Part shown: in pieces, positions 8,124 to 37,569 of the stretch
Layout: each line of letters begins with the position of its first letter
How positions within the stretch are numbered: position 1 is the stretch's first letter
Assembly (NCBI GenBank): GCA_004524435.1
Contig: SDNO01000003.1
Location: 1 to 39,413, forward strand
DNA: 39,413 nt
Source: Candidatus Thorarchaeota archaeon
GTDB taxonomy: Archaea > Asgardarchaeota > Thorarchaeia > Thorarchaeales > Thorarchaeaceae
Reading direction: 5' to 3'
Notes under the pieces: generated by a model
Told to the model about the DNA's origin: nothing
Seen by the model: the letters and a program-made list of their open reading frames with translations, nothing else
Databases searched by the model: none
Made by a program: the position numbers and the translations under genes

Positions 8124-9002
8124 TTATTTGTCGTTTTGTTTGTTTTCATCCAGAGGTTTGACAAGCAACCCCTCGTCCGTCACTTTGAGGACCACCCGTT
8201 TCTCAATGCCTGCAAGTTTCTTGACCTCTTCGGGGACAACGAGTCTTCCCTTGGCATCGACTTCAGTGATATCACCATAGAGTGTATGTTTCTGTCCCTC
8301 GATCAGACCATCGCGGATATGCAGAACTCTATCAGCATACTTCGCTACACGTGGATTGTGTGTGACATTGACAACGGTTGTTTGAAGATCAGTGTTTGCC
8401 GTCCTGACGTAGTCCATCACCCTTTCTGAAGTCTCAGTATCAAGCTCGCCGCAGATTTCATCACCCAGAATCACGTCAGGTTCATTTGCCAGTGCGACAC
8501 ATACTGCAACTCGCTGAATCTGTCCTCCAGATAGCTGACTCGGTCTATGATCTGCTCTCGCCTTCAGACCCATGGTATCTAGCAGCATCTTAGCTCTCTT
8601 GGACGCTGTGTCTTTCGACTTCCCTGCTATACGCATCGGGAGAAGAACATTCTCAAGGGCGGTCAGACCCTCCACCAGGTTTTCCGTTTGCCAGACGAAT
8701 CCAATCTTTCTCCTTCTGAACTCCACCGCCTGATCGTCCTTCAGCTGACTGATGTTTTGTCCATCGAAGACCACCAAGCCGCCCGTTGGCCTATCCAGCG
8801 TGCCAAGGATTTTCAGCAATGTTGATTTGCCGCTGCCTGATGCTCCCATGAGGCTGACAAACTCCCCCTCCTTCACCTCGAAATCTATTCCTCTGAGGGC
8901 GATCACTTCTTGTGGGCCTTGATTGTATATCTTAATGAGGTCACGGACCACAATCTTGTTTTCTTTTGTAATTCGATCTAGGTCTTCTCCCATGGGTATC
9001 AC
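8124..9002 (-). CDS. ABC transporter ATPase (LolD/MacB-like) with C-terminal SpoVT/AbrB-like domain
   Basis: Walker A GASGSGKST, signature LSGGQIQRV, Walker B DVILGDE, H-loop VTHNPRV. C-terminal tail YGDITEVDAKGRLVVPEEVKKLAGIEKRVVLKVTDEGLLVKPL matches the AbrB/MazE/SpoVT pattern. Overlaps the upstream permease stop (coupled). Confidence 0.93.
   Translation of the reverse strand: MIPMGEDLDRITKENKIVVRDLIKIYNQGPQEVIALRGIDFEVKEGEFVSLMGASGSGKSTLLKILGTLDRPTGGLVVFDGQNISQLKDDQAVEFRRRKIGFVWQTENLVEGLTALENVLLPMRIAGKSKDTASKRAKMLLDTMGLKARADHRPSQLSGGQIQRVAVCVALANEPDVILGDEICGELDTETSERVMDYVRTANTDLQTTVVNVTHNPRVAKYADRVLHIRDGLIEGQKHTLYGDITEVDAKGRLVVPEEVKKLAGIEKRVVLKVTDEGLLVKPLDENKQNDK
8127..8279 (-). other. 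SpoVT/AbrB-like swapped-hairpin domain at C-terminus of ABC ATPase
   Basis: TEVDAKGRLVVPEEVKKLAGIEKRVVLKVTDEGLLVKPL: V-D-x-K-G-R-[LIV]-V-[IV]-P followed by the typical helix and hairpin. Confidence 0.8.
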
Positions 9003-11806
9003 TCCGTTGTTCTGAGTTCTTCTGCGAGGTTACGATTCAGTATTCTATTCGAGATGAAGTATGTGGAACCTAGGGCAAATGCTAGGCTCAGAGCCAGCAG
9101 CAGAGCTGTTACAGTTGGGGGTACTAGAAACCGGACTGTAAGGCGTGACCACTCAACAAGCAATCCAGAACCTGCGTATACAAGTGGCATGTTCATCACT
9201 GTTAGTGTTAGGAAACTTGCGAGTACGAGCCCCAGAGCCGCGCCGATAAGTGTGCTGAACGCACTATCAAGTAGAAGAGATGTACTAAGAGAATGTCTCT
9301 GTGTACCCATGGCTCTCAGGATTGCGAGCTGCTTCCTGAGTTTCCGGCCACGAATCATCGTCAGGAGGACCATCCCTGCCGTCAGATATCCGAGTGAGAA
9401 TATCAGATTGAGTGCATAAACTCCGTAGATTGACCCACTTGTCGCAGACCGGAATAGGGCATCATACTCCTGTGAGGGGACATCATAGGAGAGAGTTTCA
9501 TTCGAGCACGCTTCTCGGATGCTCTGCACGACGGCCTCAGGATTGCTTCCTTCTTTCACACTAACATAGACTTCAGTGATTCGCGACGTATTCAGCGTTT
9601 GATAGACGTATTCTATGTTCATGATGATGAAGTCAGTCGCATCTGCAACGCCTGGAAGATACGTCTTGCTCTCAGTAGTTTCGTCATCTGATAGAAGCCC
9701 CACGATTGTGCAGTTATTCTCCAGCAGCGTTTCATTATGGAGAAAGCTGACTGAGATTTCGTCTGTATACACGGGTTGACCACTGCCGGACTGGTCGGCG
9801 GTTTGAAACAATGGCTTGAAGGATGACAGGATGTTCGATGAATTGGAGAGAAGGCTCAGAGTTGCTTCTATGTCGCGTGTGTCAACAAAGTAAGGCAACC
9901 AGAATGCTGCTCCTGACCAACGCTCCGGCTGAACGGCATACACGGGGTATGTAGTGTTCACCTCGAGCAGTTCAGTTCCGGCCCGAGTCATATATCTCAG
10001 CCAGGCAACTGTCCTGAGCAGGCCTGCAGCGCGGTGAACCCCTTCTATGTCGGCGACTTCGTCAACAAAGGCACAACTTGCATACTCTGAGCCCGGTTCG
10101 ATGTGAATGACTATGTCTGCTCCTGCTTCGAATGTGTACAGGTCTCTGATGTGTTCTGCTCCAGTACTAGAGGCAATGGCCGAGAAGAATCCTGATGCAA
10201 AGACCAGTACGATGAACATCGTACCAAGAGCTTCACTGGTCCTGAACACACGTAGATTCCTGCTGAGGACTCTGGGGCCGATTGCCAGTTTCGTTTTTCC
10301 CACTCTCCCAAGGACCTTTCTGCGAAGAAATGGACCCAATCTCGAAAGAGCTTTTGCCGAGCCTATTATGAGCGCAGAGAAAAGCAGAATGAGAGTCATA
10401 GCGAACAGAACAGAACCTGAGCTGGAGATTCCTTGTTGTCCTAGTCTTCCAAGCATTGGAATCACCAGAATCGCCGATACTGCAGCAATAGAAATCTCCC
10501 ACACGGGACTCACCCTTTCACACCCTTGCCGAGTGGTCTGGCGGTCTATCTTCATTCTCGCCTCGCTGGGCAGCATGATTAGTGCTCTCAATGCAGATGG
10601 AAGACTGACTGCTACTCCAACGACGAAGGAAAATGAAAACACATAGAGAATCAACTCAGGATTCAAGGCCTGTTCAACTGCAATGGTTCGAGACAGATCA
10701 AACTGGAGCGGACCAGAAGTGGTTCCCGATAATACCGCAGCCAAGATTCCAGTGCCCACAGCCCCGAAACTGCCCAAGATGCCCGTCACAAGAGCGCTGC
10801 CCATCACCCAGACGAATGCCTGTCTTCCCTTCGCACCCCTTGTCACTATGTTTCCAATCTCTCTCCGTCTTTCATCGGCGAGAATCTCAGAGTTGTAGTT
10901 CACCAGCATGATGCCCATAATCACACTTGGGACCGAAAAGGCCAGAGCAACGAGTGTCATGGTCGAGGACCATGAGCCGTAGCCATACACGGATTCGAGC
11001 AAGTCAAAACGTTCAACGAGGGCATAGGGTAAGGCCGCCTGCTCTATCCTTTTCTTCACGGTCTTCAGTCCGGGCACGATGGAGGCTGGGTCAGACTGAT
11101 GAAGCAGATTCCGGTCCAGCTGCAGCCAGAAGACATGTCGGATTCCATTGAGGCCTCCTAGCTCCAGACTTCCATACTGATACTCAAGCGACTGACGTGA
11201 CGTCAATATCTGCAAGCTGCTGAATTTCTGACTTGCAGCCATTTCTGTACTCGGAGCTATGGAAAAAGTTCCAATGACTGTGAGATTGCCGTAGTGGAAT
11301 ACAGGCTTGAACTCGGAATCGTATACAACCAAAGGAATCTTCCATGTTTCCCCAAAGGCAAGTCCTTCTTCTATGAAGAGCTGTTCCTCAACATAACATT
11401 CCCCGTTTCGGAGAATTGTGTCATCACTCAATGAGAAGGATGCACCAAAGGATTGGAAGAAGGTGTTGTTGACGCCTAGTATCGTTCGTCTTGAGGCTCC
11501 TGGTAAGTCTCTGGGTTTGGAGTAACCTTGAGCTACAGACAACATTTCTAGATTCGAAACGTCCTGTTGTTCAATGATGTCGTGAAATAGAATGGGAAGG
11601 GTGGTTGAATTCTGGGCGTAGAAACTATTCGTAACTGAAACTTCTAGATCAACCTCTACCTCTGATGTCATCTCGGAGAGCACGTTGCGACTGGAGGCGT
11701 CCAGATAGAGCAGCGCTCCGCCGAGCACACCTGATGCGATCGAAAAGACCACCACTGTCACGAGGACTTGGGGAGCTTTTGATGTGAGTCGCGACTTCAG
11801 GAACAT
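8999..11806 (-). CDS. FtsX/MacB-type ABC permease, 10-TM class (permease B, copy 2)
   Basis: 935 aa. N-terminal TM plus extracytoplasmic MacB_PCD-like domain, three TMs, a central TM pair, a second TM/ectodomain/three-TM FtsX repeat. Homologous to the 15605-18424 ORF (MFLKSRLTSKAPQVLVTVVVFSIASGVLGGALLYLD vs MFLFSRLMSRAPQVLATLIVFSLSSGVLGGVLLYMD). Confidence 0.9.
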   Translation of the reverse strand: MFLKSRLTSKAPQVLVTVVVFSIASGVLGGALLYLDASSRNVLSEMTSEVEVDLEVSVTNSFYAQNSTTLPILFHDIIEQQDVSNLEMLSVAQGYSKPRDLPGASRRTILGVNNTFFQSFGASFSLSDDTILRNGECYVEEQLFIEEGLAFGETWKIPLVVYDSEFKPVFHYGNLTVIGTFSIAPSTEMAASQKFSSLQILTSRQSLEYQYGSLELGGLNGIRHVFWLQLDRNLLHQSDPASIVPGLKTVKKRIEQAALPYALVERFDLLESVYGYGSWSSTMTLVALAFSVPSVIMGIMLVNYNSEILADERRREIGNIVTRGAKGRQAFVWVMGSALVTGILGSFGAVGTGILAAVLSGTTSGPLQFDLSRTIAVEQALNPELILYVFSFSFVVGVAVSLPSALRALIMLPSEARMKIDRQTTRQGCERVSPVWEISIAAVSAILVIPMLGRLGQQGISSSGSVLFAMTLILLFSALIIGSAKALSRLGPFLRRKVLGRVGKTKLAIGPRVLSRNLRVFRTSEALGTMFIVLVFASGFFSAIASSTGAEHIRDLYTFEAGADIVIHIEPGSEYASCAFVDEVADIEGVHRAAGLLRTVAWLRYMTRAGTELLEVNTTYPVYAVQPERWSGAAFWLPYFVDTRDIEATLSLLSNSSNILSSFKPLFQTADQSGSGQPVYTDEISVSFLHNETLLENNCTIVGLLSDDETTESKTYLPGVADATDFIIMNIEYVYQTLNTSRITEVYVSVKEGSNPEAVVQSIREACSNETLSYDVPSQEYDALFRSATSGSIYGVYALNLIFSLGYLTAGMVLLTMIRGRKLRKQLAILRAMGTQRHSLSTSLLLDSAFSTLIGAALGLVLASFLTLTVMNMPLVYAGSGLLVEWSRLTVRFLVPPTVTALLLALSLAFALGSTYFISNRILNRNLAEELRTTE

Positions 11807-14560
11807 CTAGACCCCCTCCCTCTCCAATGAGTGTGCCCAGCTGGCGTCAAGAGCTTGGTTGAGTTCGATATTCGCCCCTACCAATGTCACAATCACGTTG
11901 ACAAGGAATACAGTGGTAATGAACAGCGCAAGAATGATTCCCATAAGCGCAATCGGGATAGAGATCTGTATTGGAACCGGGTACTTGTACCATGAGCCGG
12001 AGTGGGTGTCTGCAAAGAGTAGTAGTTCGTTAGATATCATTAGGGGGGAAAACATCATGACCATGAGTAGGCTGAAGAATGTGAGCGCTACGGTTTCAGA
12101 TACTTGTGTCTTTGTGACATCTCCCCTTGTACTCCCCATGGCCTCAAGAATTGCCATCTCTCTTCTTGCTTTCTGGAGACTCTCCATGGAATACAATAGG
12201 AAGACTGCAATGCTTGCCAATAGACCAACCATCACTGTTACCGTGTCAACTCTCCTCTGGACAAGGTACTGTGGGCTTTGCGTAAGGATAGTGGTCTCGA
12301 TATGAGCTGAAGACCATTTTCCCTCGTCAATCACTTGTGAGGCCCCGTGAGCTATGAGGTCGTATGCAAGTTGAGCGCCCGCCTCTGATTCATCCACCCG
12401 GGCGAAGATTATTGGATCAAGTGTCTCAGCCTTCTGTATTATCTCAGACGCACTACCAATATTGATGAAGACCTTCTGTTGACCTACCACATATGAGTAA
12501 CCGAGACCCGTATAGACCAGCTTCCCATCCTTTGATACGAGCCTATCAGGAAGATAGTCTACAACTGCCACAATGACAAACTCGAAGACCTCAATCTCGT
12601 TGCCGGATTTGAGAAAGGCCCGAAGAAGATCATCCTCTCCAATCTCCATATCACTGGCGATATCTTCCGTCACTATTGCCCCAAGAGGGTTACTTGCGAG
12701 CTCATTCAATGCGATACGAAGGTCTGATTCCTCCAAGTGAATTCCATGTTCGTCATAGGCAACATAAGAGAGTTGTTCCGGATTGACTGCCACAAAGTCT
12801 GCAGTATTACCCCCCTCTGTACTTAGGTCAAGCCGAGTAGCTGCTGCAAAAGTTGCGTTGGTGCAGTAGGGATGAGATGTGACATTGGAGAGGAAAGGCT
12901 GCCAAGAGTCCGGAGAGCTTGAATCCAGGTGAAACGAAACATCACCACCAATGGCGAATCTAGTGTTGACAGTCGCCGTGTAGGGAAGTGTCGTGCTTAC
13001 GAGTGCAGAATTCCACGATGAGCTCAATGCCAAAACAAGCACCATGGCCGCTGGGACTGCAGAGGCTGATTCTTTCACCATCCTCCTTATTCCCACACTC
13101 GCGGATACTCTGCCCATCAACGGGCTGAACATCTTTGCCAACCATGGGGATCCTTTTCTAACGATTCCTATGGAAAGATTGGCAAGCCCGATGAATATGA
13201 CGAGAGGAAGGGACTCGAGGATGAGAGACACCACGAAATCATCTCCAGAAGCGAAACCTCCCAAGTGTAGACTACTGAAAACCAAGAGCCCAATGACAAT
13301 CAAGACAAGGTCCCACCGAAGAATGCCCGTGATCCGTGAGTACTTGCCTAACTGTGCACCCTGAGGTTCTGTGTCCACACGAGTACGGTAGTGAGAGAGG
13401 TAAGCCGCAGCCGTTATCATGGGCAAACCAGTTCCAATGACAATGCCGAAGATTAGGCAATCAAGAGTCACCAGAACCCTTGAGTTCAGGAGCAGTGAAA
13501 AATCGAAAGTGAGAAATCCAGTAGAACTAGTAGCCATCCAACCGAGTAGTGTTCCTAACAGGAATCCTATTCCTGCCGCTGCCAAAGAAAGGGCGAGGAG
13601 TTCGAAGTTGAGGATCCTGTTCAAGTAGGACTGAGGCACTCCACGAGCATGGAGCCTGTTGATCTCTTTCTTCCTCTCAGTCACATGTTTCCGTACCACT
13701 AATAGAGAGGTAACCACTGCCAGCACCAATGAACTCCCGGCACGATATACATTGACCAGGCGCAATTCCTGCAGATATGTTTGGTACTCATTGATACCTT
13801 CCTTCAGCATGCCAATGACAGTGATGAGAGACCAGTCTCTCGTAACACCGTAGTCCTCATCCAGACTCCTAATTGACTCCTCGACTTGAGTGAGGACCGA
13901 GAGGCTCGTACGAGGGTTGAAAGGCGTCACGACATTCTCTGGCACCGATACGTAGACATACCCAGTTTTTGCAAACGTGATTAACTGTTCCAGGACTATG
14001 GCCTTTGCCAATGAATACTGGTTGGGGTTGTGGTTATCCACCGCTCCCAGCTCGAAAATGCCAACCAGAGTGAGTTGATAATCTGTTCTAGGTAGCATGA
14101 CTGTCATATTGACGTCGAATCCAAGTGTGCTCTTCAGGGCTGAAGCGACGCTCTGCTCTAGCGCAATCTCAGATCTGTTTGCTGGCATCCTCCCCTCTAT
14201 TATCCTGAATACAGTGGGATAGTTCTCGATGAAGAGATCGTCTATGTAGGCTGTTGTCGTTTCAACTTCCCATAATAGGGACTTATAGAGGGTTGTCAGT
14301 CTGGCTCGAACAGTAGCCACTGATCCTGCCTTTGCCACGCCTTCCATCTCACGAATCTCATCGAGCTTATGCTGGAGATACTCGGCCTGAGCAGTCATCG
14401 ATGCAGGCCCGACGTCAGTGTGCTCATCCCACTCGCTGAGTGACTCAGTATCAAGATAGACCATCAAGCCAACGATACTTGCAGAACATAGCATGAAGCA
14501 GAACACAGTCACTATTTGGCTGCGGGACTTCTGTAGTATCTTGAGACTCAATGGGACCAT
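11807..14560 (-). CDS. FtsX/MacB-type ABC permease, 10-TM class (permease A, copy 2)
   Basis: 917 aa; C-terminal FtsX signature (REMAILEAMGSTRGDVTKTQVSETVALTFFSLLMVMMFSPLMI). Homologous to the 18424-21213 ORF (shared ...DSYSMHKWDELVEIGPVAM / ...DTESLSEWDEHTDVGPASM). Confidence 0.9.
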   Translation of the reverse strand: MVPLSLKILQKSRSQIVTVFCFMLCSASIVGLMVYLDTESLSEWDEHTDVGPASMTAQAEYLQHKLDEIREMEGVAKAGSVATVRARLTTLYKSLLWEVETTTAYIDDLFIENYPTVFRIIEGRMPANRSEIALEQSVASALKSTLGFDVNMTVMLPRTDYQLTLVGIFELGAVDNHNPNQYSLAKAIVLEQLITFAKTGYVYVSVPENVVTPFNPRTSLSVLTQVEESIRSLDEDYGVTRDWSLITVIGMLKEGINEYQTYLQELRLVNVYRAGSSLVLAVVTSLLVVRKHVTERKKEINRLHARGVPQSYLNRILNFELLALSLAAAGIGFLLGTLLGWMATSSTGFLTFDFSLLLNSRVLVTLDCLIFGIVIGTGLPMITAAAYLSHYRTRVDTEPQGAQLGKYSRITGILRWDLVLIVIGLLVFSSLHLGGFASGDDFVVSLILESLPLVIFIGLANLSIGIVRKGSPWLAKMFSPLMGRVSASVGIRRMVKESASAVPAAMVLVLALSSSWNSALVSTTLPYTATVNTRFAIGGDVSFHLDSSSPDSWQPFLSNVTSHPYCTNATFAAATRLDLSTEGGNTADFVAVNPEQLSYVAYDEHGIHLEESDLRIALNELASNPLGAIVTEDIASDMEIGEDDLLRAFLKSGNEIEVFEFVIVAVVDYLPDRLVSKDGKLVYTGLGYSYVVGQQKVFINIGSASEIIQKAETLDPIIFARVDESEAGAQLAYDLIAHGASQVIDEGKWSSAHIETTILTQSPQYLVQRRVDTVTVMVGLLASIAVFLLYSMESLQKARREMAILEAMGSTRGDVTKTQVSETVALTFFSLLMVMMFSPLMISNELLLFADTHSGSWYKYPVPIQISIPIALMGIILALFITTVFLVNVIVTLVGANIELNQALDASWAHSLEREGV

Positions 14561-14648
14561 TGCGGATTCCTCCGGTGCTCAGGTATCAGCTGGCTTCTCG
14601 AAACACACCGTATCCATTCTCCACGATTCTTGCCCAGTGCTGTATTCA

Positions 14649-14680
14649 GAAACCGGTTTCGTTGATACTGCCTAATAAGC
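14649..14680 (-). promoter_or_regulatory. Putative module-2 promoter with palindromic operator
   Basis: Minus strand: TATA-like GCTTATTAGG followed ~27 bp downstream by the perfect palindrome GAAACCGGTTTC (14649-14660), in the 163-nt gap between module-1 ATPase and module-2 permease. Confidence 0.4.
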
Positions 14681-14691
14681 AGACTCCTTGA

Positions 14692-14717
14692 AGCAGCAGG
14701 CGGTTTGCTCCTGCGCT
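14692..14717 (-). terminator. Hairpin just downstream of module-1 ATPase-AbrB
   Basis: AGC-a-GCAGG-cggtttgct-CCTGC-GCT, 7 nt past the stop codon (minus strand). No strong U-tract. Confidence 0.3.
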
Positions 14718-14723
14718 CTCAGC

Positions 14724-15599
14724 CTATGATTGCTCGTCTTCTTCGAGATGCGTTTCAAGTGGCCGCATGAGGAGCCCTCTGTCTGTGATCTCGAGGACCA
14801 CTCTCTTTCCGATGTTGGCCAGTTTCCTGACTGATTCTGGAATCACGACTCTGCCCTTTGCATCGACCTCTGTCATCTCTCCGTAGATGGTGTGTTTCTG
14901 TCCCTCGATTAGGCCGTCTCTGATGCGGAGCACTCTATCTGCTGTGGCCGCAACCCGGTCATTATGTGTTACATTGACAACCGTCGTGCCGAACTGCTCA
15001 TTAATCATGCGAACGGATTTCATGACCATGTCAGTTGTTTCCGTGTCTAATTCTCCGGTTATCTCGTCGGCCAAAAGAAGCTCTGGTTGGTTAGCCAGTG
15101 CCACACAGATTGCCACCCGCTGGTTCTCGCCGCCTGAAAGCTGATTCGGTTTGTGCTCCATCCTCTTGGAGAGGCCCATCGTCGTGAGAAGCATCTCAGC
15201 ACGTTCTTGGGATTTGTCTTTGGGAGCTCCTGCTAGATTCATCGGCAGCATGACATTCTTCAGAGCGGTGAGGCCTGGTACCAGATTGCCACTCTGCCAA
15301 ACGAAACCGACCTTCCTGCGTCGATACATCATTGCCCTATAGTCATCAAGTAGAGTCACGCTATGCCCATCAAAAAGGACGCTTCCAGCAGTGGGTTTGT
15401 CTAAGGCGCCTAGCAGTTTGAGGAGAGTTGACTTTCCACTTCCTGACGGACCTACAATGGTTATGAATTCGCCCTCCGAGACTTCGAAGTCAATGCCTCG
15501 TAGAGCAATCACTTCTTTCCTTCCCCTCTTGTAGACCTTCATCAGGTCTCTGACCACGACTTTGTATTTTTCCGCAATCTCTTCTATGTTCTCAGTCAT
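14724..15599 (-). CDS. ABC transporter ATPase (LolD/MacB-like) with C-terminal SpoVT/AbrB-like domain
   Basis: Walker A GPSGSGKST, signature LSGGENQRV, Walker B ELLLADE, H-loop VTHNDRV; tail YGEMTEVDAKGRVVIPESVRKLANIGKRVVLEITDRGLLMRPLE. Start taken at MTENIEE (ATG 15597-15599); the ORF-track start lies inside the upstream permease. Confidence 0.93.
   Translation of the reverse strand: MTENIEEIAEKYKVVVRDLMKVYKRGRKEVIALRGIDFEVSEGEFITIVGPSGSGKSTLLKLLGALDKPTAGSVLFDGHSVTLLDDYRAMMYRRRKVGFVWQSGNLVPGLTALKNVMLPMNLAGAPKDKSQERAEMLLTTMGLSKRMEHKPNQLSGGENQRVAICVALANQPELLLADEITGELDTETTDMVMKSVRMINEQFGTTVVNVTHNDRVAATADRVLRIRDGLIEGQKHTIYGEMTEVDAKGRVVIPESVRKLANIGKRVVLEITDRGLLMRPLETHLEEDEQS
14727..14885 (-). 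other. SpoVT/AbrB-like swapped-hairpin domain at C-terminus of ABC ATPase
   Basis: TEVDAKGRVVIPESVRKLANIGKRVVLEITDRGLLMRPL, canonical VDxKGRVVIP motif. Confidence 0.82.
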
Positions 15600-15604
15600 C
15601 AGAA

Positions 15605-18424
15605 TCACTCCGCGTATTGAATTTCCTCCGCAATGTTGGCCTGAAGGCATCTCCATGTCACAGTCAGAACCGCAAAGAGTGAAAAGACAAAGGCTGTGCC
15701 TATGATGCCAGCAAGGATTCCGGTGGGTATCGAAGGCACCACCGGAAGCCGAGTCCACAGACTCGTTGTGCTGCTTCCTATGAAGACTAAGGGAATCTGA
15801 CTGACGAGGCTGGCCAAGAAGATGCCGAAAAGGCTCCCAATGACGCTGGCAATACAGATGCCCGCAAGCATGTCAATTCCCACAACAAGCATAATCGAAC
15901 TTGTATCACTACCAAGGGCCCGCATAATTGAGAACTCTCGCCGCAGTTTTCGCACCCGGATTACTGAGACCACTGCCATCCCAGCCGTCAGGTAGACAAG
16001 TGCGAACACAACGTTCAAGGTATAGACTCCGAATACTGACTGGCCAGCTTTCGCATCTAGAGTCTGATCCCGTTGTTCGTGCGCACTATCGATACCCACC
16101 ACGTTGTTCGGTGCGGCCTCATGGATATCTTGGATTATGCGAGTGTAGTTCGCCCCGTCCTCGATTCTCACGAAATACCGGCTGACACTATCTGTGTCTA
16201 GAGCCATCTGGACATAGTTGAGGTTCACGAGAACAAAACTGGGAAGGTTCGAGTATCCTGGCAGATATCTCACTCCACCGCCCTCCATAGAAGACAGCGT
16301 ATCAACTATATTGCAATCGAGATAGAACTTCTCGTTGGGGTCCCTTGCTATCTCTAGCCTGTATGTGTCGCCATAGACTGGGACCCGGTTCGGATACTGA
16401 CCTGCATAGTGGGAGAAGGGTTTGAAGGAGCTCAACACGTTGGAGTTCGCCAGCTGCATTGCCTGGAGCCCCATCTGGGGCGTATTCTCATAGGCGAAAT
16501 ACGGGAGCCAGAATCCCGTTTCCTCATAGAGCTCTGGTTGTACCCCAATGACATTGATCTCCCTTCGGACCTGTGAAACAGCTCCCATGGTATCCTGTGT
16601 TGTGTACATGACAACACCGCTTGCCTCAAGCACAGCACAGGCAGATGTCACTCCTTCAATGGCGGACAGATTGTCCACAAAAGCACGTGTCATGTTATCG
16701 AAGGCTGGATTCAGTTCAACGCTGATGTCTGCCCCAGTCTCAAACAAGAAGAGATGCTCCATGTGGGCATAGCCCGTCGATGCAGAGACAGATGAGAATA
16801 CGCCAGCAGTGAATACGAGGGCGATGAACATGGTCCCGATGATCTCACTCTTCTTGAAGACATTCGTGGCCCGTGAGAGTACTCTCGAGGCCGCTGCCAA
16901 TCTGGGTCGTTTTATCCGATCCAAGACTCGGGACTTGAACCAAGGTCCAATTCGAGCAGCCCCACGTGTGAACGTGAACAGGGCGATGGCAAGTAATGGT
17001 ACTACTAGCAGCATCATGGATGCGATGGCGACGAGGCTGAATCCGTATCCAAGCATCATGAGCATCGGCCCCAGAAGGTACGCGGAGATAGCGAAGCCAA
17101 CGATATCGAAGAAGGGATTTCCAATAGTTTCTCGATCCAAGAGGTTCTCGCGTTGCACGATACTGTGAGCCTCTGTGGCGGTGATTGTGAGCGCTTTTGC
17201 TGCGGCAGGTATGGAAACTAGTAGCCCCATAACAAATGAGAATACGAAGACGAAGATGATAGACTGTGTAGTGAAGAAGAACGTAAACTCGCCGAGCTGC
17301 GTCAGATCGAAGTTCATGAATGTGCGTACTGTACTCGACATGACAGCCCCTGCAATCCCCGTCCCAATTGCACCGACACTTCCGACGATGGCCGTGAAGA
17401 GACCCGAACCCATGATCCAACTGAATGCCTGTCGTCCTGAAGCTCCCCGAGTCTTCAGTGTTCCAACATCCCTACGTTGTTCGTCTGCCAGTAGATTCGA
17501 ATTGTAGTACACGAGGAACATGCCCATGAATATTGTTGGAATGCAGAAGGCTACCCCTATGGCTCGAATGACAAAGACCCAGTTCACGTACTTGTTGACA
17601 GCGTCACGGAGCTCGTAGCCTCCGTATGGCACGACAGCATAGGGAAGAAGTCGTTGCTCAATGCGGCGGCGAATGTTCTCCAGTTCATCAATGGTTTCTG
17701 CAGGATCCGACGACAGGATAAGGCTGTGGTCGATTGCGGCCCAGACTGCATCCCTCACGGTGCTGTCCATGAAGACGGGCGCCATCCTGTTTCTTATTCC
17801 AACCTGAGTGGTCACCATCCTCAGCGATGTGAACTCCGGTTGCTGCCAGTAATAACTCCTCATGAACAGCTCTGAAGTGAAAGTACCGACGATGGTGAAG
17901 TTGACATTGTTCTCTATCCTGTTACCATGCTGATCCCACTGGACTGTGCGCGCCGTGTAGTTGTCCCCGATTGCCAGCCCGAAATCGTCCATTGTTTCCT
18001 TCTCAACCCAGCAACTGGTGTTATCGAATGGGGAGTTACCCTGGGTGTCCTCTAGTGCGTTTGGGAACGTTTCGAAGAATGAAGACTCAACGCCCAGGTA
18101 TGTGTTTTCATAGTACCTTGGGTCATCCTGATACCACTCAAAGGATTGAAGGTAAGCCACCGACTCTGTGTCCAGAATATGAGTCTGATTTGCTATTGTT
18201 GCAATGATGTCTTCGAGCGATGTCTCGTTCTGGAAGCCGAAGATTGGCTGGATTTCGACCTTCAAGTCGATGGAAACGTCTTCGGTGAAATCATCCAAGA
18301 CCTGTGGTCCGATAGTATCCATGTAGAGCAAGACGCCACCTAGCACACCAGAAGAGAGCGAGAATACAATCAGAGTTGCGAGTACCTGAGGTGCGCGTGA
18401 CATGAGTCTTGAGAAGAGAAACAC
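15605..18424 (-). CDS. FtsX/MacB-type ABC permease, 10-TM class (permease B, copy 1)
   Basis: 939 aa, same topology as the 8999-11806 ORF. GTG start overlaps the upstream stop (TAGTG). Confidence 0.9.
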   Translation of the reverse strand: MFLFSRLMSRAPQVLATLIVFSLSSGVLGGVLLYMDTIGPQVLDDFTEDVSIDLKVEIQPIFGFQNETSLEDIIATIANQTHILDTESVAYLQSFEWYQDDPRYYENTYLGVESSFFETFPNALEDTQGNSPFDNTSCWVEKETMDDFGLAIGDNYTARTVQWDQHGNRIENNVNFTIVGTFTSELFMRSYYWQQPEFTSLRMVTTQVGIRNRMAPVFMDSTVRDAVWAAIDHSLILSSDPAETIDELENIRRRIEQRLLPYAVVPYGGYELRDAVNKYVNWVFVIRAIGVAFCIPTIFMGMFLVYYNSNLLADEQRRDVGTLKTRGASGRQAFSWIMGSGLFTAIVGSVGAIGTGIAGAVMSSTVRTFMNFDLTQLGEFTFFFTTQSIIFVFVFSFVMGLLVSIPAAAKALTITATEAHSIVQRENLLDRETIGNPFFDIVGFAISAYLLGPMLMMLGYGFSLVAIASMMLLVVPLLAIALFTFTRGAARIGPWFKSRVLDRIKRPRLAAASRVLSRATNVFKKSEIIGTMFIALVFTAGVFSSVSASTGYAHMEHLFLFETGADISVELNPAFDNMTRAFVDNLSAIEGVTSACAVLEASGVVMYTTQDTMGAVSQVRREINVIGVQPELYEETGFWLPYFAYENTPQMGLQAMQLANSNVLSSFKPFSHYAGQYPNRVPVYGDTYRLEIARDPNEKFYLDCNIVDTLSSMEGGGVRYLPGYSNLPSFVLVNLNYVQMALDTDSVSRYFVRIEDGANYTRIIQDIHEAAPNNVVGIDSAHEQRDQTLDAKAGQSVFGVYTLNVVFALVYLTAGMAVVSVIRVRKLRREFSIMRALGSDTSSIMLVVGIDMLAGICIASVIGSLFGIFLASLVSQIPLVFIGSSTTSLWTRLPVVPSIPTGILAGIIGTAFVFSLFAVLTVTWRCLQANIAEEIQYAE

Positions 18425-21213
18425 TAGCCATCGCCTCCCATGGGTCCGCCTTCAGACCAAGATGCGTTCAGAGACTGTGAAAGCTGGATTCTTGTTGCAA
18501 GGCTCGATACGGCCACAACAAACAATGTGACTGACACCAGGAAGAAACCTAAGACAAGGGATAGGGTTCCATAAGGAACAGAGAAGAAGAATCGGATTGG
18601 ATAGATGATATAGCTCGTCTGCTGGGATAGGCCGGTCGTGACAATGAGTAGTGGTGCAAATACGAGGAGCAGCATGATGCTCGAAAGTGTGAGTACCAGG
18701 AGCTCCGTCGCTTGCGTCTTCACTATGAGCCTCTTCCCTGCTCCCATCGCTCTCATCAGGGCGATCTCTCTTCGTCGTGAGTTCAGTCCCTCCGCTGCAT
18801 AGACGGATATGGCCCCAAAGATGACCAAGGTAGTGGCTATTGTCAACATTGTGTCCACTGCTCGATCCATCGTATAGTCTGTAGTGCCGATATACGAGCG
18901 AACTTCAGAGTCAACGTCAGCGTAGTCATTGTTGGCAGAGTCATCCCCATCGGTAGATTGGTATCCTGCTGCCTCTAGTATGTCGAGAGCAACTTCGGTG
19001 GTATTACTGGAATCTGCAACACGCATCGCGTACATGTTTCGCGACTCCGTGGTGAAGTTCACGAATTGTGATAGGTATCCTCTGTTGACCCACACAGTCC
19101 GCAGTCCAAATCCCGCACCGTAGTAGCCCCATATGTTCCCAGAAGTATCAGACAGAAGCGCGTTGGTGAGAGCCTCGTAGATTCCAATGATTGTGAAGGT
19201 GAACACCGAAACGTTCCCTCCTTCGGTTCCATATGACCGCAACGAATCGCCCACGGACAGCTCGTATTCTTCGGCTATATCTTGGGAGATTATGGCACCC
19301 ATTGGACTGGTTTCGAGCTCCATTAGCATGCTGCTAAGGGGCGACTCATTGAGGGGCTGGCCTGTGTAGTCGTATCCAACGGCCAGATAGTCCGATGGAT
19401 CCATTGCCACCAAGTCTGCGGCGTCGTAGTATCCGGTAGAGAGCATCCTCTCAGTGATTGACAGCTCTGCTCCAGCGACATAGGCCTCATGAAGCGTGCA
19501 GTTCTGCACGAACTCGGTAGCGTTTGCATCGGCGAAGCTATTCAAGGCATCGAGGTCGAAACGGATGTCTCCTCCGAATGTGAATCTGGCCTGATTCATC
19601 TTTGTTAGAGGGAGTGAATCCCCGATAACCGCGCTGCTCCAGGCAAGGCTGATAGTGAGCACTAGCACCATGGCGACAGGCCCTGCAGAGGACGCAGCCC
19701 TTCCTATTCGTCTGATTCCGACTGACGACGGAATAGAACCAAAGATGCCCTCCATCCTATTCGAGATACGATTTGCCCCGGCTCTGAGGGCCTTGATGAA
19801 TAGACTTGCCATCCCCAGAAAAAGCGCAAAGGGTGCAAGACTTAGTATCATGTTAGAGAAGAATCTCAACAATGGGTTGAGCTGCAGAGCAGTCCCCGTA
19901 GCCAACATGGCTATCAACGCAATGCCTGTCAGAGAGACCAGGAGCACATCCCACTTCACAAATCCCAGGAGGCGTGTGAGTTTGGCGAGTTTACCCGTGC
20001 TCTCCTCTGCCGTCTGTCTAATCCTGTATACGTAGTCATAGGCGAGGATTGCCCCGAAGGGGACGAGAATCCCCGCTACGGCTGATAGAGCCAGTGATTC
20101 GATGCTAATCAGGAACGGCTCATTGACGAAAAGCTCCCATCGGAAGACGAAATAGTCACTCGACATCACTCCCACTCTGCTGAGCAGGGCTCCGAGGCCG
20201 AGGCCGACTATCGTGGAGAGAGCAGCTAGTATCATGATTTCTTTGTACACCATGTTTCGAACCTTGTTCTCATCAGCACCTCTGGAGATGAGAATGTTCG
20301 ATTCGTATCTCCTCTCATTCATGTTGTGACGCACGGCGAGGAAGAGTGTCAAGACTACGAGGAGAATGGGGCCACCAGCTCGAAATAGCTGAGCAACACG
20401 CTTCCCCTGTTGCCAGGATGCATAATTCGTGATTCCTGAGCGGAGCCCGTCGTTTACCCAATATCTACTACCAGTATCCCGGTCTGGATCATACGTGGGA
20501 TCTAGTTCTCTTATTGACTCCTCGATCTGCAGGAGGTAGTCAAGACTGCCCTGAACATTGAAAGCTGATACTCTTGACCTGTCAACGTCAATCCAAAGGT
20601 ATGAATCATCGGTTCGTGGATCTAACATTGATCCCGTGACCATTGCGATCTGCCATCCGTAGTGGAAAGAACCAGAGTTTCCACTGAACTCCCAGAGCCC
20701 AACCACGGTCATGACGTAGGAACCACCTATCCCTGGCTCTCCTCGTGTGTAGTTCACTAGGTCACCAATGTCTATATCGGTTTCTTGGGCAATTTCGGCA
20801 CTGAGGGCTATCTCATCGGTGGCTGAGGGAAAGGCTCCTTTGTTGAGGACGAAAACATTGCCAAAGTGTGTCATCAGTGTTTGATCGTACCTGAAGACAC
20901 TAGCTGACCAAGTTATGGGTTGGCCCCCTGTTCCGATAGCTGTCACGCTTCCTTCTGCCGCTGCAAAGATTGCGATGTCTGTGACTCCGTCAATCTCTGC
21001 AACACCATCTGCGATGTGTTCGACGCCCGCGCCTCCTATCTCCATGGCGACAGGGCCAATCTCCACAAGCTCGTCCCACTTATGCATGGAATACGAATCA
21101 ACGTAGACCGTTATCGCTGCAGCAAGGGACGAGGAGAGCATGAGGCAGATCAGTGTGACGGCCTTTCTGCGGGACCCTCCGAATGTTTCGTATCCTACCT
21201 GCAGGGCAGTCAC
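18424..21213 (-). CDS. FtsX/MacB-type ABC permease, 10-TM class (permease A, copy 1)
   Basis: 929 aa. SPMGAIISQDIAEEYELSVGDSLRSYG ectodomain and RREIALMRAMGAGKRLIVKTQATELLVLTLSSIMLLLVFAP FtsX signature. Confidence 0.9.
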   Translation of the reverse strand: MTALQVGYETFGGSRRKAVTLICLMLSSSLAAAITVYVDSYSMHKWDELVEIGPVAMEIGGAGVEHIADGVAEIDGVTDIAIFAAAEGSVTAIGTGGQPITWSASVFRYDQTLMTHFGNVFVLNKGAFPSATDEIALSAEIAQETDIDIGDLVNYTRGEPGIGGSYVMTVVGLWEFSGNSGSFHYGWQIAMVTGSMLDPRTDDSYLWIDVDRSRVSAFNVQGSLDYLLQIEESIRELDPTYDPDRDTGSRYWVNDGLRSGITNYASWQQGKRVAQLFRAGGPILLVVLTLFLAVRHNMNERRYESNILISRGADENKVRNMVYKEIMILAALSTIVGLGLGALLSRVGVMSSDYFVFRWELFVNEPFLISIESLALSAVAGILVPFGAILAYDYVYRIRQTAEESTGKLAKLTRLLGFVKWDVLLVSLTGIALIAMLATGTALQLNPLLRFFSNMILSLAPFALFLGMASLFIKALRAGANRISNRMEGIFGSIPSSVGIRRIGRAASSAGPVAMVLVLTISLAWSSAVIGDSLPLTKMNQARFTFGGDIRFDLDALNSFADANATEFVQNCTLHEAYVAGAELSITERMLSTGYYDAADLVAMDPSDYLAVGYDYTGQPLNESPLSSMLMELETSPMGAIISQDIAEEYELSVGDSLRSYGTEGGNVSVFTFTIIGIYEALTNALLSDTSGNIWGYYGAGFGLRTVWVNRGYLSQFVNFTTESRNMYAMRVADSSNTTEVALDILEAAGYQSTDGDDSANNDYADVDSEVRSYIGTTDYTMDRAVDTMLTIATTLVIFGAISVYAAEGLNSRRREIALMRAMGAGKRLIVKTQATELLVLTLSSIMLLLVFAPLLIVTTGLSQQTSYIIYPIRFFFSVPYGTLSLVLGFFLVSVTLFVVAVSSLATRIQLSQSLNASWSEGGPMGGDG

Positions 21214-21225
21214 GTCTATATCCTC

Positions 21226-21957
21226 CTACGATACATTCACGATTGTTCCGTCTCTCATGGTGTAGAGCTTCTCCATCTGTTGACCCACCTCTGGGTCATG
21301 CGTCACCACGATGAGTGTCCCACCCTCTGTGTGAGTGAGTTCCCTCAGTACCTGCATGATCTCCTCACCCGTCCTTGTGTCCAGGTCTCCTGTAGGTTCG
21401 TCCGCAAGCACAATTACCGAGCTGGCTTGACCTTTTGGCTTGGCCAAGGCTCGAGCAATTGCAACCCGCTGTTGTTCTCCTCCGGATAACTCGTCTGGTC
21501 TGTGTTCTGCTCTCTCTGTTAGACCCACCAGCTCGAGGAGATGATCAACTCGCTCTTTCCGCGCATTCTCCTCAATACCACCGATGAGTAGCGGCAACTC
21601 GACATTCTCATAGGCGGAGAGAACCGGTAGCAGGTTGAAGAACTGGAAGACGAATGAGATCTTATCTCTCCGAACGGCAGTGAGATCCTTCTCGTCCATC
21701 TTTGTGATGTCCATTCCGTCAATCCTGACTGAACCGGAGGTTGGTCTGTCTAGGGCTCCTATGAGATTAAGAAGCGTGGTCTTGCCGCTTCCCGAAGGCC
21801 CCATGATGGCAATTGCTTCTCCCTCCGTTACGTCCAGGGAAACGCCTCGTAGGGCTTCAACACTCACTTCCCCAACTCTGTAGATCCTAGAAACGTTGTC
21901 AACTGAGATGAGATAGTCGTCGTTCAGCACGTCCCACTCCAAGATTCTTGCTAACAT
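21226..21957 (-). CDS. ABC transporter ATPase, LolD/MacB-type (no AbrB domain)
   Basis: Walker A GPSGSGKTT, Q-loop FQFFNLLP, signature LSGGEQQRVAIARALA, Walker B VIVLADEPTGDLD, H-loop VTHDPEV; ends MRDGTIVNVS as in canonical LolD. First gene of the minus-strand cluster. Confidence 0.95.
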   Translation of the reverse strand: MLARILEWDVLNDDYLISVDNVSRIYRVGEVSVEALRGVSLDVTEGEAIAIMGPSGSGKTTLLNLIGALDRPTSGSVRIDGMDITKMDEKDLTAVRRDKISFVFQFFNLLPVLSAYENVELPLLIGGIEENARKERVDHLLELVGLTERAEHRPDELSGGEQQRVAIARALAKPKGQASSVIVLADEPTGDLDTRTGEEIMQVLRELTHTEGGTLIVVTHDPEVGQQMEKLYTMRDGTIVNVS

Positions 21958-23164: not shown

Positions 23165-24478
23165 TCACGTGTTCGAAATCTGGTCATCGTACAAGTCTGC
23201 AGCAGTCTGGAATACATCTTCGACTCCCTCGTTTGTTAGACACGAGGTCTCTACAAACGCTACGGGATGGAAGCTTCCTTCACTTCCTAGGTTTTCCGCA
23301 ATCTTCTCAGCCGCTTTGAAACCTTCCTCGTAGGTCACCGGTGGTTCATCCCACTCTTCCTCCCCTTCCGTTCTCTCGTCTACCTTGTTTCCAACTAGGA
23401 CAATCGGAGGCATATCCTCAGAGGTCATGGCGACTTCGCGAATCCAGAAGTCGATGCTCTCGAAGCTCCACCTGTCGGAGGCAGAGTAGACAATCAAGAG
23501 GACATCAGGGCTAGCGTAGAATGTTCTGCGATCTATTCTTGACTCGACAGCATAGTCAAAGCACCAGACTTGGATTTCCACCCGGTGATTGGTCGTGTCA
23601 AAGACCCGCTCGTAGATGTATCCTGATACTTCGTTGGTTTCCTCATCGATGCAGAGAGGACAGAGATTGGCCTTCGTCATAAGAGTCCTCTTGCCCACAG
23701 ATTTCTCGCCTAGAATCAGAACCTTTGCCTTCACTAAGGGCTTGATCGCGTGTTTTGAGCGCTTAGAGATTGGTTTTTCTTTGTCCTCCAAATCCTGTTC
23801 TTCTTCAGCTCTAGCAGGTGCTTGCTCCAACACATCCGGAGCGATAGGTTCCGAGGCTCTGCTCTTGGATGCGGCCTTTACCTCCATTTCCCCGGATAAA
23901 TCTATCTTGATTCTGGACTTACTCTCTTGCTTCTGGCTGCCCGTCGGCGCCATAAACGTGTCACTCATATGTTCCACCGCTGAGAGTGCTTCTGTTATGC
24001 CTTCATATCCATTCTGCCAGTTTGTGACTTCAGGCTCCGTTTCCGGAGTGGCCACAAATCTGGCTGTTGCCTCTTCTTTCAACTCGGGTTCGGCGTCCCT
24101 TAGAGCTTTTTCGGCGGTCTTTTTTTCTTGAACTGGGGGAGAGGTGTGCATTGTTTCGGACTCCTCTATGGCCTCTACTTCGGGGATCGGCTCGGGTTCA
24201 TCTTCAACCATTATTGATTTGGCCACGGGGACACCGATTGTATCCAGTGTGTCTCGGAGAATTCGGTTCGCAATGAGTTTGCCGTTGGAACGAAGATAGA
24301 GATTGAGGTCCTCGACTATCTCATCAAATGATCTATTCTTGATCTTTATTTTCTTCTTGATGATCCCTCTGTCTCGGACCTCAACGTAGGTTGGTAGAAG
24401 TGTGACCGAGACTGTTGTTCCGGGGACTATCAAGTGCCAGTTGCTCCAGAGCTGGGTTCTATCATGAACCTTCATCAT
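23165..24478 (-). CDS. Ras/Rab-like small GTPase domain protein with N-terminal extension (divergent G motifs)
   Basis: C-terminal domain KAKVLILGEKSVGKRTLMTKANL...VEIQVWCFDYAVESR...VLLIVYSASDRWSFESIDFWIREV...PPIVLVGNKVDE...FVETSCLTNEGVEDVFQTAADL; acidic low-complexity linker; ~85 aa N-terminal domain. Start taken at MMKVHDRTQ. Confidence 0.85.
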   Translation of the reverse strand: MMKVHDRTQLWSNWHLIVPGTTVSVTLLPTYVEVRDRGIIKKKIKIKNRSFDEIVEDLNLYLRSNGKLIANRILRDTLDTIGVPVAKSIMVEDEPEPIPEVEAIEESETMHTSPPVQEKKTAEKALRDAEPELKEEATARFVATPETEPEVTNWQNGYEGITEALSAVEHMSDTFMAPTGSQKQESKSRIKIDLSGEMEVKAASKSRASEPIAPDVLEQAPARAEEEQDLEDKEKPISKRSKHAIKPLVKAKVLILGEKSVGKRTLMTKANLCPLCIDEETNEVSGYIYERVFDTTNHRVEIQVWCFDYAVESRIDRRTFYASPDVLLIVYSASDRWSFESIDFWIREVAMTSEDMPPIVLVGNKVDERTEGEEEWDEPPVTYEEGFKAAEKIAENLGSEGSFHPVAFVETSCLTNEGVEDVFQTAADLYDDQISNT

Positions 24479-24595
24479 GGAAGTCTTAACTGTTTCGTAG
24501 ATAGTTGTCCTCTGAAGTGGCAATCTCTCTCCCAAAGGCTCCGGATAGAAAGAAATATGTCTGATATTATCTGTCGTTTGTTCTGGGAAAAGACC

Positions 24596-25165
24596 ATGAC
24601 AGAAGAAGATACGAATTTCCGCGACTATGTTGACGTTATTATCGACTGGCCCGAACCAGGAAAGGCTGTTTGTGACATCAGTCGACTGCTTGAGCATCCA
24701 ACAATCTTCCATGAAGCTGTCGTGGCTCTGGCTAGGCCACTTGTCGAACTGCAGCCAAATAAGGTTCTAGGCATAGAACAGCGAGGTTTGGCACTTGGAA
24801 GCGCCATTGCGTACTACTTGGGATGCGGAATTGTGCCCGCTCGTTCGATTGCGTATGTGCCAGACGACTACAAGCGACCAGTTGAATTCCTGCCTTCAAG
24901 CATGTTCGCAGATCGAAGGCTTGCTCTCGTATCGGAGTCCATCGATGAGGGTGACAGAGTAGCAATCGTTGATGACTGGCTTGTCCAAGGCACCACTGTA
25001 CTTGCGGTGAAGCGACTGCTTGAAGAAAAGCTGGGTGCAACAGTGGTAGGGATATCGTGTGTGATCAACAACTTATCTGACACTCGTCTCAAACTTCTGG
25101 GACGTCCGGAAGTCTTTGAACTCATCAGGAATCTGAAGACAGATATTCTCACACCAGTTGACTGA
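24596..25165 (+). CDS. Adenine phosphoribosyltransferase-like PRTase
   Basis: VIIDWPEPGKAVCDISRLL, KVLGIEQRGLALGSAIAYYLGCGIVPAR, and PRPP loop VAIVDDWLVQGTTVLAVKRLLEEKLGATVVGISCVI. Start at MTEEDTNFRDY; the longer ORF overlaps the divergent GTPase gene. Confidence 0.85.
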   Translation: MTEEDTNFRDYVDVIIDWPEPGKAVCDISRLLEHPTIFHEAVVALARPLVELQPNKVLGIEQRGLALGSAIAYYLGCGIVPARSIAYVPDDYKRPVEFLPSSMFADRRLALVSESIDEGDRVAIVDDWLVQGTTVLAVKRLLEEKLGATVVGISCVINNLSDTRLKLLGRPEVFELIRNLKTDILTPVD

Positions 25166-35762: not shown

Positions 35763-36593
35763 CTATCGAGAATCTGGCTCAAGGAGGGGTTGATCTATTC
35801 GTAGGCCAGGCCTAGGAAGTGAACAAGCATATACCTTGTCAATGACAATAGCCGCAGTCTTCCTGTCGATTGGCTTGAACTCGCCCTTCACTTGGAATGC
35901 AGCAGGTTCTTGTGTCACCAGGGAAACTGCTACTCGCTGGCCATCTCTGAGGTCGATTCCCCGTTTCCTTTCCTCGCTCCTGTCTACTACAAGGAGATTT
36001 TCTGACGCAGGTAGCATTCCAAACGCAGGAAATGCTCTAGGAAATCCAGATGAGTCCACATATCCAAGAATCTTGACGGCTGCCATCATATTGAATCGGT
36101 CCAGCACGGCAGGTGGCATTCTGCCTTTGCCTGTTGCCCGGTCAGACACCTTCCTCTTCGAGAGCCTTGCTCTGAGGTAAGTCAGCAGAACAGACATTTT
36201 GGAGAGCCCTTGCTTTTCGCCGACCCAGATAGCCTCTGCTAGACCTGCTCCACGAACGTTTGTGTACTGGTTGTACCGAAACAGAGGAGTCATTGCCATG
36301 AACTCATAGACCTCATCTGCCACATGGTATGAATCGAACTTCGCTGTGATGTTCCAGTTGTCAAGATTCATCTTAAGGACCAAAAGTCCAATCTTGTCAT
36401 TCCCCTTCTCCAAGTTCTGCTTTGTCTTGTGACCCATGAAATCACCGTAGACGAGCTGGTTTCCCTGATAGACAGTCCACGTCATCACAAGAGCTGAATT
36501 CGGCTCGTCCTCCTCATTCTTTGTAATCATGAACTTAGGAGTTTCAAATATGCTCAATGTTTCTTTCAGCTCATTACTAAGTATCTCATCCAC
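35763..36593 (-). CDS. Pyridoxamine-5'-phosphate-oxidase-like / FMN split-barrel-like protein
   Basis: N-terminal half LSNELKETLSIFETPKFMITKNEEDEPNSALVMTWTVYQGNQLVYGDFMGHKTKQNLEKGNDKIGLLVL resembles the split-barrel pattern; a second similar half follows. Overlaps the GRE activase gene by 8 nt. Confidence 0.65.
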   Translation of the reverse strand: MDEILSNELKETLSIFETPKFMITKNEEDEPNSALVMTWTVYQGNQLVYGDFMGHKTKQNLEKGNDKIGLLVLKMNLDNWNITAKFDSYHVADEVYEFMAMTPLFRYNQYTNVRGAGLAEAIWVGEKQGLSKMSVLLTYLRARLSKRKVSDRATGKGRMPPAVLDRFNMMAAVKILGYVDSSGFPRAFPAFGMLPASENLLVVDRSEERKRGIDLRDGQRVAVSLVTQEPAAFQVKGEFKPIDRKTAAIVIDKVYACSLPRPGLRIDQPLLEPDSR

Positions 36594-37569
36594 AGTATGC
36601 AGTCCTCCCTTCCATATTTGTTAGCCTCTCCGATTCGTCACTCTCCGAGGCGGTCATACCCGACCAAGTGACGTTTGCAACACCCATGTTGCGTGCTATT
36701 TCTGCGAGTTCCAACATGGTCTGCTTCCGCATCAAGGGATAGTCCCTGAGAGGATACTCGCGCCCGAAGAGCCTGTACTTGTCCAGACACATCTTATTGA
36801 ATGCTAGAAGATCGTATCTCGAAACATTCGGCATATTCTCCACTATGAATGATGCAACTCTCCGAATGTTCTCGGCCTCATCGGTATGACCCGGGATCAC
36901 CGGTGTACGAATCCAAGCTGGAATTCCCAGCTTGGCAAGAATCTTCGCATTTCGCAGTATTTGCTCAAGCCCGACTCCAGTATACTTCCGATGCTTGTTT
37001 TCGTCCATCAGCTTGAGGTCGAGCAGGACCAAATCAAAGGCGTCTACAGTCTTTGTCCAGACCTGCTCCGTCGCATATCCTGTTGTATCAAGTGCTACGT
37101 GTATTGCCCGTTCTCTCAAACCATTGGCAATTGCAGCAGCAAAATCGTGCTGTAGAAGTGGTTCTCCCCCAGATATCGTAACCCCTCCTCCTGAGGCTTC
37201 AAAGAATGGGGTATCTCTTGCTAGTTCCTCAACAAGCTCGTCCAAATCACGGGTCTCACCCATAATCTCTATTGCTCCAGTCGGGCAGGCTTCCTGACAG
37301 CTACCGCAAAGGTCACAGCGATCATGGTCTATGGCCATTCCTTCTGCAGTCAGAACTAAGACATCGTTTGGACATGCTTGCACACAAGCCCTATCTCCTA
37401 TGCATTTAGTCTCTCTCCAGACAACTCTAGGAGTGGCGCTGATCGTTTCTATATTGTGACACCAGATGCAATGAAGTGGACATCCCTTGAGGAATAGTGT
37501 GGTTCGAATCCCAGGTCCATCCTCTGTGGAGCACCTCTGGATATTCGTAATTTGGCCCGCGATTGTCAT
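36586..37569 (-). CDS. Glycyl-radical enzyme activating enzyme (radical SAM, with ferredoxin-like 2x[4Fe-4S] insert)
   Basis: Radical SAM motif GCPLHCIWCHN (CxxxCxxC), CVQACPNDVL and CDLCGSCQEACPTGAIE clusters, SGGEPLLQ, and RTPVIPGHTD. Confidence 0.97.
   Translation of the reverse strand: MTIAGQITNIQRCSTEDGPGIRTTLFLKGCPLHCIWCHNIETISATPRVVWRETKCIGDRACVQACPNDVLVLTAEGMAIDHDRCDLCGSCQEACPTGAIEIMGETRDLDELVEELARDTPFFEASGGGVTISGGEPLLQHDFAAAIANGLRERAIHVALDTTGYATEQVWTKTVDAFDLVLLDLKLMDENKHRKYTGVGLEQILRNAKILAKLGIPAWIRTPVIPGHTDEAENIRRVASFIVENMPNVSRYDLLAFNKMCLDKYRLFGREYPLRDYPLMRKQTMLELAEIARNMGVANVTWSGMTASESDESERLTNMEGRTAYCG

Follow-up and report, generated by a model that had tools for sequence, protein, structure and literature searches.

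AbrB-type domains at the C-terminal end of LolD-like ABC ATPases in Asgard archaea and several bacterial groups

Why would an ABC transporter ATPase end in a domain of the AbrB type, and which partner would such a domain serve? The question is raised by a locus of Candidatus Thorarchaeota archaeon (assembly GCA_004524435.1, contig SDNO01000003.1), analysed here as a window of 39,413 nucleotides (positions 1-39,413). The first-pass annotation had described two ATPases in this window, each with a complete NBD followed by an AbrB-type tail, and a third one that stops at the usual LolD end. We confirmed all three genes on the minus strand and analysed the tails, the NBDs, the neighbouring permeases and the related loci of other genomes.

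Gene layout of the window

The window carries a duplicated version of the gene unit described below, with two module copies (Table 1). Module 2 has its own tailed ATPase and is without a plain ATPase. FtsX was detected above the cut-off in all four permeases and MacB_PCD in one of them, and the hydropathy segments of the permeases agree with the duplicated layout. For the tailed ATPase 2, a GTG at 15758, upstream of the ATG, is likewise in frame.

Table 1. Features of the two-module locus (window coordinates)
Feature	Position	Strand	Description
Tailed ATPase 1 (P0001)	8124..9002	-	292 aa; LolD-like NBD and AbrB-type tail; last gene of module 2
AbrB-type tail of ATPase 1	8124..8294	-	MraZ match about 8160-8264
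Permease D	8999..11806	-	935 aa; two FtsX stretches; 35% identity to permease B
Permease C	11807..14560	-	917 aa; two FtsX stretches; 30% identity to permease A
Tailed ATPase 2 (P0002)	14724..15599	-	291 aa from ATG at 15599; LolD-like NBD and AbrB-type tail; last gene of module 1
AbrB-type tail of ATPase 2	14724..14897	-	MraZ match about 14754-14870; AlphaFold2 pLDDT 81.9
Permease B	15605..18424	-	939 aa; two FtsX stretches
Permease A	18424..21213	-	929 aa; two FtsX stretches; MacB-like periplasmic core
Plain LolD-like ATPase	21226..21957	-	243 aa; tail absent; first gene of module 1; proposed NBD partner

Elsewhere in the window, a 515 aa protein (23165-24712, minus strand) carries a Ras-type GTPase domain C-terminally, and at 36586-39278 (minus strand) a radical SAM activase gene adjoins the gene of a pyruvate-formate-lyase-like glycyl radical enzyme. 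At two related loci (L045 and L046) module-2 permease copies come after the tailed ATPase, with no further tailed ATPase within the next 2 kb.

Identity of the tail and of the NBD that carries it

In both P0001 and P0002 the NBD is followed by about 55 residues reading '[IM]TEVDAKGR[LV]V[VI]PE.V.KLA.I.KRVVL'. MraZ and MazE are members of the AbrB superfamily. In the comparison with these two families, the isolated P0002 tail passed the MraZ cut-off (PF02381, 26.7 bits against 23) and came just short of the MazE cut-off (PF04014, 22.2 bits against 24.7), and the P0001 tail was slightly under the MraZ cut-off (21.1 bits against 23). Of the 58 related tails, 35 matched MraZ and 32 matched MazE at E<=0.01. 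When these 58 tails, drawn from the window and related loci, were aligned and used as a profile, the 18 best PDB sequence matches were all chains of the MazE/MraZ/AbrB/SpoVT family; in the alignment the Asp in 'vDxxGR' reaches at least 90% conservation, and the Pro in 'IP' never varies.

The predicted structure of the isolated P0002 tail (monomer model, pLDDT 81.9) has the AbrB fold, a swapped-hairpin half-barrel. Foldseek ranks 1-13 were occupied by the AbrB superfamily, with SpoVT (2w1t) first; the match probabilities were 0.89-1.00 and the E-values only 0.04-0.5, modest because the tail chain is so short (about 50 residues). In the full-length ATPase model the NBD is confident and the tail core is lower (block means 72-90). 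By profile and by predicted fold, the tails are true AbrB/MazE/MraZ-superfamily domains.

The assignment of the NBDs to the LolD/MacB type was also borne out, and each NBD is complete with all catalytic motifs. The two tailed NBDs scored 223 and 226 bits with the LolD equivalog TIGR02211, under its curated cut-off of 307.75, and were also under the MacB equivalog cut-off. Walker A Lys, Q-loop Gln, Walker B Asp-Glu and His are invariant in the tailed (n=76) and plain (n=49) NBDs; we therefore rejected a degenerate ATP site in one NBD kind, a few degenerate signatures aside. These are the tailed NBDs of L111 and L125, with an altered signature motif (LSSGE and LTGGD) and possibly a degenerate ATP site. 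The signature-helix Arg (VAIARAL) was found in 49/49 plain and 0/76 tailed NBDs, and the tailed and plain NBDs are therefore distinct kinds.

In an NBD-only tree of 84 rows, compared with plain partners, other ATPases of the own genome and bacterial relatives that lack the tail, E. coli MacB among them, a single branch set all 47 tailed NBDs apart (UFBoot 97, SH-aLRT 98); losses inside the tailed clade would escape this tree, since the tailed rows were picked by having the tail. A recognisable NBD subfamily is thus defined, with the tail present and the signature-helix Arg absent.

Distribution and composition of the unit

The search in other genomes that the first-pass annotation had proposed detected the architecture in Asgard archaea, Chloroflexota/Dormibacterota, Paenibacillus and three actinomycetes. 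A collection-wide peptide scan gave 18 archaeal loci, Thorarchaeota among them, and three Dormibacterota/Chloroflexi loci. The profile of the NBD end plus tail matched in 120/228 Asgard genomes, a second, zinc-ribbon type included, and in at least 129/400 Chloroflexota genomes, a lower bound, as in most cases 15 candidates per genome were scored. In about 110 of the Chloroflexota genomes, as read from the table, the match spans the NBD end and the tail; the remainder are tail-only matches, some of them to stand-alone AbrB-like proteins. All 28 Chloroflexota loci that were read are genuine NBD-plus-tail ORFs. Among plasmid records, tblastn with a Chloroflexota tail detected four tailed ATPases (Paenibacillus, Streptomyces, Nonomuraea and Kitasatospora), and with a Dormibacterota tail there was no match.

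Among the matches listed, the tailed ATPase of the close type is single in most Thorarchaeia and present twice in at least three genomes (G000, G218 and G222). A third tailed ATPase is encoded elsewhere in the own genome (L009/L085, contig C273), with an AbrB-like tail followed by a CxxC...CxxC zinc ribbon. Its relatives are found across Thorarchaeia and other Asgard families, several of them beside their own permease and plain ATPase.

The recurrent unit consists of one or two full-size FtsX-type permeases (about 920-1100 aa), the tailed ATPase and, in the usual case, a plain LolD-like ATPase encoded separately. The gene order is plain-permease A-permease B-tailed in Thorarchaeia, plain-permease-tailed at several zinc-ribbon loci, permease-tailed-plain in other Asgard groups and Chloroflexota, and plain-adaptor-permease-tailed in Paenibacillus. 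The common Chloroflexota unit has one permease and two NBDs. At all 28 Chloroflexota loci read, a plain LolD-like NBD is adjacent or fused to the tailed one, and in four Chloroflexota genomes (L108, L113, L118 and L124) NBD-AbrB-NBD is encoded within a single ORF of 567-601 aa. No plain ATPase was found within the stretch read at some Asgard loci (e.g., L158, L160 and L163), and no permease was found near the ATPase pair at the Chloroflexota locus L174. The unit on the plasmid of Paenibacillus cellulosilyticus (L176) also encodes an RND-type adaptor, and the gene of an extracellular solute-binding protein comes next.

The plain ATPase, rather than the other tailed one, is the likely partner of the tailed ATPase, since the recurrent unit usually has a plain ATPase and the two are fused in four Chloroflexota genomes. 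A dimerisation lock pairing the two tailed ATPases, as suggested previously for this window, was not supported, the recurrent partner being plain, and it was rejected as a general role because many Thorarchaeia have a single tailed ATPase of the close type. The trees of the tailed and plain NBDs are congruent (r 0.92 and 0.95; 0/5000 permutations), which fits co-inheritance of the two sequences and may merely mirror species history, i.e., vertical inheritance.

Public records name the tailed ATPases only 'ATP-binding cassette domain-containing protein' or 'ABC transporter ATP-binding protein'. The first-pass annotation knew of no AbrB fusion to a LolD/MacB-type NBD, and our literature search, thin on subscription journals, likewise found no published description of an AbrB-type domain on an ABC ATPase. 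One Chloroflexota tail passes the Pfam MazE cut-off, and the combination may thus already stand, uncommented, in automatic domain catalogues. The presence of the tailed ATPase with its own permease, and usually a plain ATPase, in several bacterial phyla suggests that a known transporter class has an old branch that has been overlooked.

Possible working of the unit and relation to known systems

We suggest, with moderate confidence, that the tails, AbrB domains added to one NBD subfamily of Type VII (MacB/LolCDE/FtsEX/YbbAP-like) systems, act as a dimerising or regulatory module on a heteromeric NBD pair. In each unit, two different ATPases would serve a duplicated FtsX-type permease of full size, and most simply the tailed and plain ATPases would pair as the two NBDs of that one permease, an arrangement favoured by the fused ORFs and the single-permease loci. 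The AbrB domain would sit at the cytoplasmic end of the tailed NBD as a protein-protein module, and one such domain would be added per transporter. Because AbrB domains normally dimerise, the tails of two complexes may pair, or a tail may dock on the neighbouring NBD; this would set the NBD spacing or cluster transporters and may regulate the ATP cycle. It speaks against this reading that, if each NBD pair has a single tail, an obligate AbrB dimer requires a second transporter or another AbrB partner; an AbrB-like partner domain was looked for in the permeases and none was found.

In a rather unlikely alternative, the tailed ATPases would be homodimers on one permease, their tails forming a swapped hairpin within the transporter as a MetN-like clamp, and the plain ATPase would serve the other permease. 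AbrB domains are dimers in solved structures, and the plain-A-B-tailed order of the window puts each ATPase beside one permease, so that permease A could take a plain homodimer and B a tailed one. However, the Chloroflexota and some Asgard units have both ATPases with a single permease, and some units fuse both NBDs into one chain. A reading of the tail as what is left, without function, of a fused antitoxin-like gene is highly improbable: the tail is short and diverges in sequence among phyla (identity to the first tail as low as 12%), but it is kept across several phyla with its fold-defining Asp and Pro, and among 26 Thorarchaeia sequences its conservation equals that of the NBD (identity 80.3% vs 80.8%; pN/pS 0.17 for both, with pS about 0.8, near saturation).

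AbrB, MazE, SpoVT and MraZ are DNA binders, and the tail could be a working DNA-binding domain, the ATPase binding its own promoter or tethering DNA to the membrane and so coupling transport to transcription. The Thorarchaeia tails have a net positive core and are basic at the equivalents of R15, R23 and R24 (16/16, 16/16 and 15/16). Against this, the R8/K9 equivalents are lost in nearly all tails, the R23 and R24 equivalents are basic in 33% and 4% of the Chloroflexota tails, the R15 equivalent is lost in one Asgard group, and the rest of the unit is a membrane transporter. The contact-residue test is weak, because stand-alone AbrB-like proteins vary at these positions too, the controls also being without basic residues at R8/K9. 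We consider DNA binding improbable, and from the residue pattern a link to transcription is not favoured as the general role of the tail.

Returning to the AbrB domain as a dimerising or regulatory module on a tailed-plain NBD pair, its retention as the C-terminal part of an ABC ATPase in both archaea and bacteria suggests an undescribed control of the NBD or a clustering of transporters. A bolder proposal, which we regard as doubtful, is an ancient, uncatalogued Type VII ABC class with two different ATPases, common to Asgard archaea and several bacterial phyla, in which AbrB tails would link transporters to their neighbours or anchor DNA at the membrane. The two-ATPase Type VII unit is directly testable in cultivable bacteria, e.g., Paenibacillus cellulosilyticus and Streptomyces clavuligerus.

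Compared with the AbrB/MazE/SpoVT/MraZ superfamily, the tails share the sequence profile and the predicted fold, but they are attached to an ABC ATPase, the AbrB DNA-contact residues are not generally conserved, and the turn that follows the helix has about two residues fewer than its counterpart in AbrB and MazE. The only other PF04014 matches in the own genome (L133 and L134) are both AbrB-PhoU fusions, and one of the two adjoins a PstS-like phosphate-binding protein. In such archaeal fusions, too, the AbrB-type domain belongs to a protein associated with an ABC transporter, but there it is N-terminal on PhoU and not on the ATPase.

C-terminal domains on ABC ATPases are known from MetN (C2/NIL domain) and ModC, where they dimerise across the NBDs (PMC10710835). 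In contrast to the tails, these belong to importers of another type, have an unrelated fold and bind the transported substrate; by analogy, the tail may exert a similar control of NBD spacing through another fold. The NBD family and the FtsX/MacB-type permease domains are those of the MacB/LolCDE/FtsEX family, whose members have permeases of half size and no AbrB domain attached to their NBDs (PMC5985334). The unit also resembles the E. coli Type VII system YbbAP-TesA, in which the permease YbbP is a 10-helix single chain carrying two YbbA copies (PMC12646458). In both systems a separate LolD-like ATPase sits on a full-size permease that is built from two FtsX repeats, has about 10 helices and bears two large extracytoplasmic domains. 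YbbA, however, is one ATPase used twice, whereas the unit described here has two ATPase kinds, one of them AbrB-tailed.
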